Of a stretch of DNA of 64,000 bases, positions 151-3,052 are shown one piece after another (within the stretch, counting starts at the first letter, position 1; the number at the start of each line of letters is the position of its first letter). Under the pieces are notes generated by a model. It did not search any database, was not told where the DNA came from, and was given only the letters and a program-made list of their open reading frames with translations. The DNA comes from Polytrichum commune (taxonomy: Eukaryota > Streptophyta > Polytrichopsida > Polytrichales > Polytrichaceae), in assembly GCA_950295325.1 (NCBI GenBank), contig OX485806.1:20274001-20338000 (forward strand), in the 5' to 3' direction. A program made the translations under genes and the position numbers.

Positions 151-2382
151 CACGGGCGGGGGGGGGGGGGGTGACTATCAGAATTTTAGAAACCACGTGA
201 GATAAAAAATAGGGTCAATTTAATTCGTTGAGGGTAAAATTTATAACTTCGTTAGATCTACCATAGCTTTGGAAATATGTCCCATACATGATTATATATA
301 AAATAGGGCGGTGAATAATTCCTCCATTTTAGTAATCAGTAGAAAAAAAATAGGATTATAGATATTGGATCCCCCCAAATGTGTGTAGTAGAATCAATAG
401 AATAATTATGGGTTTGACTACTTGGATGAAGAATTGTGTAAATTCTGTCCAAATTTGAATGAAAAGTGTTAGTATGAAGGGAAAATGTTGTGGATGTTTT
501 TGGGGGAAGGAACATTGTGACTTCTCAACGGCCCTTGGGTTGGCTTAGGGTTTGGACAAGCATAGTGGCGTGAAGGCGGTGAAGCGTTTGGGTAGGAGGT
601 CTTGCGTTGGTGAAGCGAGAAGCAGTGAAGTAGTGAAGCGTGGCACAAAGGCGGTAGGTAAGACACATTTTTTGGAGCTTTCTTCGTTGCTCCATAGCAT
701 TCACAGTATTCACACAGGTGTTTCACAAGCGCCAAAGATTCGGCTTGCTCCTCTTGCGGTAAGAGTCAATTTCGAACTCCAACTTCTTGATTTTTCTTCA
801 TTGTTGTGTGGTAAGATTCAACTTTGTTTTACCTGGTTGTCATTCATCCTCCTGTGCAATTTGGAGCCAAAGCGCCGGAGTTTCTGCTCCTCTGCTTCAA
901 GAAACAAATAGTTTTTGGTTGTGCAGACAAAACGTTGGGAGAAAATGACCGAGACTTATGCGGAACCTGAGGAGCTTCTCGACTACGAGGATGAGGAGGA
1001 GGCCGCTCCCGATGCCGTAGTGGGAAGACCCTGAAGAAGTAAGAGTATTGGGTATGAAGAAGTTGTTGGGTCGGTTGCGGTTGAGTACGAGTATTGGGTG
1101 TGTGCGTTGTGGGATTGGATCTTGGGGTTTTTGTATTTCGAGGGATACGATCGGATGTGTTTTTGGGCATCAGTGGTTGCATCCAGAGGAGCCTGGGAGG
1201 GAACATATACCAAATTGGGTAGTGATTGGAATTGGCGATTGGTACAAATCAGAAAATCTGGAGAAATAATCATGATTACCAGACAATCCAAGCTGGTGAA
1301 AGTCTTGTTTCCCATAGATTTCTGAATAAACATGTTCAATTCTCTAACTCAAAAAACCTAGTTTTCAAGCCATGAAATTATGAGAATTAAGATTGGAATG
1401 TAGTTCGTTCGTCATAATTTTTTGTTATTAGTTTTACTTGTCTTGCTAGTAGTGTCTAATATGCCAACATTCTATTCATTGTCTTTTTGCTATAACAACC
1501 TTTTGTAGATGATCGATGATGCGCTACAACATTTGGCACCTCACCATGGTAGACTCGGAGGATTGCGCTTTGCCTTGGAGGATACGTGATGGAGTGGTTG
1601 GAGACTTCGAAGGTTGCCCGCCTCATGCCAATAATTAGTTTTAGTTATTTGTCATCATTGGTGTTAAACCTCTCCAAAATATTTTGTCTTATCATGACAT
1701 TGTAGAGGATATCGATATGTACCTTGACATGTATCGGAGGGTGCATAGTTATATCCTAACCCTTCACATTGTAAATATTTGGTACAATGTTGAATGTGTT
1801 TGTGAACACAATTAAAGTAAATGTTTTCAATTTTTGTATTTGGTTTTTCCAATTGAAAATAATCTTTTGTTTTGGAGTAGATAATTATGCAAAATTTCAT
1901 GTCTTATGACAATTGATTATAATTTTTGTTTTGTTCTATCCGTGTTTACAACTTGTCTATGTTAGCTTGTACATTTTGTTATCTTCATGTTCATTGGTAA
2001 TCTTTTAACTAAACTCCAAGTGTTATTGGTTGTGTTTTGAATGGCATTTTGAATGCTTTAGCATTGGTATAACTAATTGAAACCGATTAAATGATAAGAT
2101 GGATGGTGTGGAATGTTTGTTGCTCACATAGTTGATTTTGCAATGCTATAGTATTCCGTTCATTATTTGGTACTTGTACGATTTATAAAAAAAATATGAT
2201 GCCAAAAATTGGTCTCTCTAAAAATTTACAAATAAACATAGGGTGCTTAAAAATATGTCAAAGTAACTTTATATCTACAAATAGGGAGGGAAAAAATACC
2301 GAGAGGTGCATAAATACCCCCCCATTAAATACCCCATTATCGCACGTGGTTACAAAATGTAAGGGGGTGTGACCCCCCCGTG
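151..2382. mobile_element. 2.2-kb gene-carrying (Pack-type) hAT-like element, family A
   Basis: The element is bounded by a perfect 8-bp direct repeat, catgttat, at 143-150 and 2383-2390. Its ends are inverted: the left reads cacgggcggggg and the right, reversed, reads cacgggggggtcac. Behind both G runs lies a shared subterminal block, 'aaaccacgtgagataa' on the left and 'aaccacgtgcgataa' on the reversed right. An 8-bp duplication with C-N-N-GGG ends is characteristic of the hAT superfamily. I see no transposase, so it is non-autonomous. The interior includes a stretch of gene-like, higher-GC DNA (about 535-1330) recognisable as the start of a helicase gene, described separately. About 1500-1640 is a second less A+T-rich patch of unknown origin. 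The rest is A+T-rich filler. Confidence 0.85.
759..1038 (+). pseudogene. Captured 5' fragment of a UAP56/DDX39-type DEAD-box RNA helicase gene
   Basis: An ATG at 945 opens a frame encoding PEELLDYEDEEEAAPDAV from residue 7. This matches the acidic N-terminus of plant UAP56 helicases (RH15/RH56, mRNA export and splicing), which have a conserved ELLDYE-E-E motif before the helicase core. The frame then reads to a stop at 1032. Skipping about one base at 1019-1021 would instead read GKTLKK, as expected before the core, so a small indel has probably broken it. A splice donor (GTAAGAG) follows at 1039. Upstream, a donor at 759 (GTAAGAG) and an acceptor ending at 926 (TTGTGCAG) mark a leader intron 18 bases before the ATG. 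Because introns are present, genomic DNA was captured, not a cDNA. The helicase core (GKT, DECD) is absent, so no helicase can be made. The leader could still bring a promoter to this site; that is inference. Identification rests on one short motif plus the gene structure. Confidence 0.6.
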
Positions 2383-2499
2383 CATGTTATTATGAGTTAT
2401 ATCTTGAGGATGAAACATTGTTCAATGCTTTCTGGTTGGAAAGTGAAAGTGGATTGTATATGTAATAAAGGCTTGTTTATTTCAAGATTTATATTATGT

Positions 2500-2852
2500 C
2501 TCCGGGGGGGGGGGGGGGGGGCAGTGTGTTAAAAAGTTAAGGATATAGGTGCGAACAACCACTATTTTATAGGGGGCTATTACTTTCAATTCTCTTCTTT
2601 TTTTCACATGCTATCATTATGTAAACTTCTACTTTGGGTTAATAGAAAAATGGCTTGCCTTACTTATAATTCCAAATTACCTATTATTTCATACCCTATA
2701 GTACTTTAAAGATGTCCAATGCCATTTTTGATACCCTATATTACTCTTAAGTCCAATTATAATTTTTTGCCCTCATGTTTTTTAAATACCCTATCATTTG
2801 TTCGCACGTGTATTGCTACTCCAACCAATGACTACCCCCCCCCCCCCCCGAG
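2500..2852 (+). mobile_element. hAT-type MITE with G-run/C-run ends, copy 1
   Basis: This 353-bp element starts ctccggggg and ends cccccgag. It is flanked by a perfect 8-bp duplication, tattatgt, at 2492-2499 and 2853-2860. It inserted into the family-B element that spans the left edge of the window. A second copy in reverse orientation lies at 27326-27663 and matches through most of its length, for example 'gttaaggatataggtgcgaa' and 'tcgcacgtgtattgctactc'. It has no coding potential. The homopolymer of about 17-18 G at the left tip is longer than in the sister copy. Confidence 0.9.
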
Positions 2853-3052
2853 TATTATGTGTATGTAGTGTAGACATTTATCACATTAAAATACAAAGCT
2901 TAGCCTAAACACACGAGTCTCATTCTCTAGACTATTTGTTAGGGCCGTATACATTTTTTCCTCTCTCTATAAATGTCTGATGTATAGGGGGTTCTATTTC
3001 ATAGTCGGCCACACACGTCATTAAGGTTTCCAATGAAAAGTTCACCCACTGG

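Follow-up and report, generated by a model that had tools for sequence, protein, structure and literature searches.

A Pack-Type Transposon That Very Probably Captured a Genomic Piece of a UAP56-Type Helicase Gene and Multiplied as a Chimera

Introduction

How a transposon without a transposase comes to carry the beginning of a host helicase gene is the question raised by positions 151-2382 of the window, the 64-kb stretch of DNA analysed here (G000:C4:20274001-20338000 of a 408-Mb assembly). The way in which cut-and-paste transposons capture genes is still debated, and a passage of one review allows that an undiscovered mechanism may exist for their uptake of gene pieces. The results presented below indicate that a non-autonomous cut-and-paste transposon very probably copied a 249-bp genomic stretch of a UAP56/DDX39B-type gene, multiplied, and took up further pieces. 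The family keeps unusually complete intermediates, leading from a UAP56 piece without deletion (L021) through a 13-bp loss (L026) to other captures (the window copy, L025 and L006/L007). Since the identified parents lie in the same assembly, the joints and their order can be examined directly.

The Element and Its Family

The features of the locus are as follows.

143-150, no strand: left target-site duplication (TSD) CATGTTAT, exact match to the right copy
151-2382, plus strand: complete non-autonomous Pack-type element with terminal inverted repeats (TIRs), an 8-bp TSD and an empty site
151-200, plus strand: left terminal inverted repeat (CACGGGCGGG...GTGAC...AACCACGTGAGATAA)
151-804, plus strand: the element's own left module, which copies lacking UAP56 share as far as element position 645-654
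805-825, plus strand: short linker, no source found, present only in UAP56-bearing copies among the loci compared
826-1046, plus strand: captured UAP56 piece comprising part of the 5' leader, exon 1 (13 bp deleted) and the splice donor; parent C1:34568637-34568885
945-1034, plus strand: residual open reading frame MTETYAEPEELLDYEDEEEAAPDAVVGRP, then stop, frameshifted against the parent
1039-1045, plus strand: retained splice donor GTAAGAG of UAP56 intron 1
1062-1241, plus strand: second captured fragment, taken from the DNA upstream of a PfkB gene (C6:22733311-22733651 minus about 160 internal bp)
1242-1313, plus strand: 72 bp for which no source was found, complete in L001-L005 and L027 and represented by its first 27 bp in L006/L007
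1314-2382, plus strand: the element's own right module
2335-2382, plus strand: right terminal inverted repeat (...GTGTGACCCCCCCGTG)
2383-2390, no strand: right target-site duplication CATGTTAT, exact, 8 bp

The perfect 8-bp duplication that a preceding sequence-only reading had described stands exactly as proposed, with CATGTTAT at 143-150 and 2383-2390. The inverted ends it claimed are likewise present, and the termini (left CACGGGCGGGGG..., right ...GACCCCCCCGTG) recur as family ends across the genome. The paired end pattern of the family is CACGGG...AACCACGTG, and an inverted motif, AACCACGTGmGATAA, read by eye about 28-31 bp inward, is common to both termini. With up to two mismatches allowed, the terminal patterns occur at 325 left and 202 right places genome-wide, and the backwards control gives 0 for both; coordinates were listed for the first 100 places of each end, or 200 of 527 ends. 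Among the best 40 of 1219 candidates scored, at least four other loci are near full-length relatives at 97-98%, and many further places match the arms alone. The earlier view of a mobile element was right, but it overlooked both the multi-gene chimera and a family with hundreds of ends.

Target-site duplications were compared by script in 42 end pairs among the loci examined, of which 36 could be delimited and 6 were left undelimited. The 8-bp duplication is exact in 29 of the 36 delimited pairs, at least 7 of 8 bases match in 33, and in none is an exact duplication longer than 8 bp. This indicates that the duplication around the element is not due to chance. Empty sites were sought with nine joined-flank sites as queries, the best 40 of 4511 candidates being scored. 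Within these, a locus running across the join appeared for four of the nine sites (the window, L001, L004 and L025), the joined flanks of L007 gave one weak row at 77% reaching just about 20 bases past the join, and those of L002, L003, L026 and L027 gave no spanning row. The window has two paralogous empty sites, C2:48250336 (87%, whole site) and C5:15008177 (84%). Both carry a single CATATTAT as against the CATGTTAT-element-CATGTTAT arrangement in the window, which bears out the expectation of an empty site with one duplication and shows that the element sits inside a member of another repeat.

The longest open stretch of the window element, 134 aa, runs along the minus strand of the captured DNA, and the longest reading frame in six other copies has 160 aa. 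Four reading frames from those six copies had no Pfam match over the cut-off, and three from the base element matched no Pfam family above it. The window element and the copies read have no transposase of their own. All the features by which Pack-TYPE elements are recognised are therefore present: TIRs with a fixed-length TSD, identifiable host-gene parents, mobility, which for the chimera is evident from 12 UAP56-bearing copies and the empty sites, and the lack of a transposase.

Several composite arrangements were also encountered. In L037, one family member is nested in another in opposite orientation; the 13-kb span of L005 resembles a copy into which other DNA has been inserted; and in a two-ended 17-kb span at C5:47.54 Mb (L054), the right arm breaks off in the first 3.7 kb.

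Superfamily and the Search for a Transposase

An element of this kind would be mobilised in trans by a transposase, most likely of the hAT type. It is rather probable that the family belongs to hAT itself and is mobilised by a hAT transposase of the same genome, and the exact 8-bp duplications in most delimited pairs, together with inverted ends starting CA, are consistent with this. Transposase profile searches of the genome covered hAT and KDZ. The hAT dimerisation domain (PF05699) is abundant, with 150 matches scored, the best of 1060 candidates. The 200 listed ends (of 527) have none of these 150 domains nearer than 13 kb, the closest listed being at 14.0 kb, and one lies within 15 kb of a listed end against 1.9 expected. 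In the 40 of 150 hAT loci read downstream, no transposase was found between matching ends, apart from one ambiguous relic in L101.

In L101, 36 bp resemble the family's right terminus at 89%, and a relic hAT domain lies about 0.9 kb upstream of it, which speaks for the hAT assignment. By reading of the open reading frames, the L101/L111 relic adjoins a LINE-like stretch. L112 (C1:3923988) and L113 (C1:10618127) form a sister subfamily with L101, which has the last 46 bp of the right end in common with the main family (96% in L112/L113) but a subterminal region of its own, about 420 bp long. Against the hAT reading, L112 and L113 share this right end and subterminal sequence with L101 and do not contain the hAT part; over about 6.5 kb, no left end and no transposase could be recognised in either of them. 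Among the relatives of L101, the similarity between copies of the hAT domain extends only about 180 bp beyond it and is then lost, which would fit the copying of a short piece bearing the domain apart from the rest of its element.

The base composition of the duplications and ends also weighs against hAT. The hAT preference for nTnnnnAn target sites is a tendency and not a strict rule; it is absent from 33 TSDs of this family, with T at position 2 in 6 of 33 and A at position 7 in 11 of 33. Ends of hAT elements are typically CAGGG-like, whereas those of the family begin CACGGG. The earlier designation as a hAT-type element is therefore compatible with the 8-bp duplication and the inverted ends but finds neither a linked transposase nor the expected target-site bias.

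It is conceivable, if somewhat doubtful, that the family belongs instead to another group with a duplication of about 8 bp, such as Mutator-like, P or KDZ/Zisupton elements. The length of the duplication alone separates none of these, and Mutator-like elements are the best-known gene capturers in the portions of the literature consulted. Pack-MULEs and other Mutator-like elements usually have a 9-bp TSD, however, and such a duplication is not seen in the 36 pairs. The genome gave no match to a KDZ transposase, a weak result because the controls were silent too. Helitrons are not known to have TIRs or TSDs, while this family has both.

The UAP56 Piece and Its Parent Gene

The interior of the element matches C1:34568637-34568885 (L024 1638-1886), so that the parental UAP56 locus anticipated by the sequence-only reading was indeed found, at C1:34.57 Mb (L024/L057). 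The parent gene goes on with 33 further protein letters and then with exons for DEAD (Pfam 3.8e-32) and Helicase_C (4.5e-19). When its joined exons were compared with PDB sequences, DDX39B was closest (1e-94), and the first helicase outside the DDX39/SUB2 group was DHH1 (1.8e-34). The window copy matches the parent over 193 bp at 96% (826-1018), and L021 over 249 bp at 96%, a match that extends about 20 bp into intron 1.

The UAP56-like N-terminus proposed for the element is confirmed, as the reading frame at 945-1034 reads MTETYAEPEELLDYEDEEEAAPDAVVGRP and the parent is of the DDX39B type. In other words, the UAP56 origin of the captured coding exon is real, but its frame is not intact: 13 bp are missing from exon 1 of the window copy, and the resulting frameshift leaves an open reading frame of 29 codons. 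The splice donor noted after the exon is there as well, GTAAGAG at 1039-1045. Other UAP56 exons are absent from the 64-kb window, in which 945-1028 (E 0.11) is the sole tblastn match at an E threshold of 1; a UAP56 gene running on outside the terminal repeats, the observation that could have overturned the capture reading, was thus not seen within the window.

Two further proposals are not supported. The captured stretch begins about 120 bp before the UAP56 ATG, so a moved helicase promoter is unsupported. The supposed UAP56 leader intron upstream of the exon, in 727-825, is ruled out: homology to the parent starts at 826, 805-825 is without a source, and most of the stretch is the family's left arm. 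Window 727-804 belongs to that arm and also occurs in copies without UAP56; in the UAP56-free L028-L033, L042 and L047, the arm extends to element position 645-654. A GTAAGAG in the left arm could pair with a captured CAG acceptor near 924, and such an intron would be chimeric.

The claim of genomic capture with introns kept is correct in that a mobile element took genomic DNA, but the evidence for it in the window is thin, with just 7-8 bp of intron 1. Intron retention is better seen in L021, where introns of HTRA survive alongside about 20 bp of the first UAP56 intron.

Other Captured Gene Pieces

The window copy carries a second host fragment. Positions 1062-1241 match C6:22733311-22733651 (L023), with an internal stretch of about 160 bp missing, and an open reading frame about 0.9 kb further on from this source, at C6:22.73 Mb, has a PfkB domain (3.3e-12); the gene is presumably fructokinase-like. 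Spliced capture of this piece is ruled out, since the missing stretch has no GT-AG borders. Another candidate source, C6:13267510 (L022), matches the first part at 93% against 92% for L023 but covers just 21 bp of the second part, and the locus at C6:22.73 Mb was therefore taken as the nearer source.

In L021 and L026, the UAP56 piece is followed by a 480-bp piece of an aldehyde-dehydrogenase gene with its parent at C4:29721256-29721734. A later exon of this parent matches Aldedh (Pfam 1.4e-7), and we take the gene to be ALDH3. The same two copies hold HTRA-protease DNA, with the parent at C1:13142120-13144941 (96-99% by piece); L021 retains HTRA introns, and other HTRA parts, exon sequence included, are missing. 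L006 and L007 contain about 800 bp of an unnamed gene (source C4:21259453-21260256, 95%) as well as a short piece resembling C6:41.43 Mb; the tested reading frame of the unnamed gene (L088) matched nothing in Pfam or PDB. In L025, the additional DNA is a stretch of about 800 bp (93%) that lies, at its source, upstream of a rubredoxin-like reading frame, the likeness being 21.4 bits in Pfam, below the cut-off of 23.

Some inserts proved to be of a different nature. Those of L048 and L016 were rejected as captured genes, being other repeats, and the insert in L027 is a nested PIF/Harbinger-like transposase (DDE_Tnp_4), not the family's own. The older copies L032 and L033 have a 383-bp interior in common at 96%, a possible further capture, which matches none of the UAP56, ALDH and HTRA pieces except at its edge.

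Order of Events and Capture Mechanism

The sequence of captures was read from an alignment of 12 UAP56-bearing copies and the parent gene. The left joint into UAP56 is identical in all 12 copies. The 13-bp deletion occurs in 11 of them, L021 alone being without it; L026 has the deletion yet runs on into intron 1 and ALDH, while in the ten other copies it is followed by the PfkB-gene piece. The parental second codon is kept in L006, L007 and L025, and Thr replaces Ala in the window copy and six others. In L001-L004 and L027, one AAG next to the donor is missing as well, the donor itself being intact. A few base differences from today's parent are common to all 12 copies and may be changes in the parent gene instead. 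This nested pattern supports a single UAP56 capture, probably followed by spread, decay and further captures. The nested series itself is seen in the copies, and its direction we infer.

A tree of the left arm, with 51 rows including the 12 UAP56 carriers, gives a less simple picture. The carriers do not form one clade on this arm and are hardly more clustered than shuffled labels: 9 label changes are needed, of which well supported branches force at least 3, compared with a mean of 10.9 after shuffling, and 35 of 500 shuffles were as low as 9. Much of the weak clustering reflects a lack of signal, because most rows differ by about 1%. The forced changes imply that members swapped arms or that internal deletions happened repeatedly, and a single capture can accordingly be upheld only with such swapping or recurrent loss. 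Copies such as L020 and L035 have the look of deletion products.

A plausible course of events can be outlined from these comparisons. As homology shows, a 249-bp genomic stretch of the UAP56/DDX39B-type gene was copied into the interior of the element, and the TSDs, the empty sites and the 12 copies show that the chimera transposed and multiplied. The 13-bp deletion arose in the UAP56 exon. In the window type, what follows the UAP56 donor is the fragment from upstream of the PfkB gene, joined to the standard right arm, and other branches took up the DNA from upstream of the rubredoxin-like frame (L025) and that of the unnamed gene (L006/L007). Acquisition may have occurred by breakage inside the element, or between neighbours, and repair with ectopic genomic DNA, a process that could leave deletions and hybrid elements.

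More tentatively, one TIR family may gather gene fragments serially in a slot between conserved arms while exchanging those arms, having sampled at least six host loci among its UAP56-bearing copies (UAP56, aldehyde dehydrogenase, HTRA, the PfkB gene, the rubredoxin-like frame and the unnamed gene) in an order readable from surviving intermediates. If this is true, the family naturally documents how a TIR transposon outside the Mutator group captures genes.

A function of the captured leader and exon, as part of a chimeric transcript or as a small peptide, is very improbable. The window copy retains the ATG, a short reading frame and the splice donor, and the other aligned copies retain the ATG and an open frame, but 11 of the 12 have the 13-bp frameshift, which leaves about 29 codons. 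Most likely the window copy is carried along passively and has no coding function. Such copies can nevertheless be mistaken in annotation for fragments of UAP56, ALDH or HTRA genes. Acquisition through RNA, by retrocopy or processed capture, might be suggested by the stretch missing from the PfkB-gene piece but is extremely improbable, as that stretch is not bordered by GT-AG, L021 keeps intron sequence of both UAP56 and HTRA, the HTRA gaps take out exon sequence, and no copy was seen with UAP56 exon 1 joined to exon 2.

Relation to Known Gene-Capturing Elements

Rice Pack-MULEs, in the accounts consulted, resemble the family in that they have captured host gene fragments and reached high copy number. 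Their Mutator-type TIRs and usual 9-bp TSD set them apart from it. Maize Helitrons, according to part of one report (PMC3288121), similarly gather several fragments in sequential steps with internal losses.

Gene capture by hAT elements is already known in print from grapevine, maize and rice, as excerpts of the relevant papers attest. The grapevine hAT family Hatvine-6 is described in a portion of its report (PMC2528002) as having common ends and a variable interior, like the family here, and that interior often matches host introns, exons and non-genic DNA. Hatvine-6 elements share transposase coding sequence in the same account, but none was seen in the copies read here. Pack-hAT and other Pack-TYPE elements were described in maize and rice (Gisby and Catoni 2022, PMC8903248), and the passages concerned present Pack-hATs, like our family, as non-autonomous TIR elements with an 8-nt TSD and host gene fragments; one maize Pack-hAT supplies a new splice donor. 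The Pack-hATs of these passages have the core TIRs of Bg and Ac, in contrast to the CACGGG ends without a linked transposase found here. A search by features, without the host name, found no published report recognisable as this TIR family, a result that says little.

Neighbouring and Unrelated Repeats

A second small element of 353 bp lies at 2500-2852 (within window 2492-2860), about 110 bp beyond the first and in the repeat that hosts both. Its G-rich inverted ends are 27 nt long and 81% complementary (CTCCGGGG.../...CCCCGAG), and an exact 8-bp TSD of its own, TATTATGT, flanks it; the two empty-site loci do not have it. An 803-bp repeat in L016 (567-1369) is up to 100% identical elsewhere and often occurs twice; because it recurs in pairs about 5.3 kb apart, it looks like the LTRs of a young retrotransposon.
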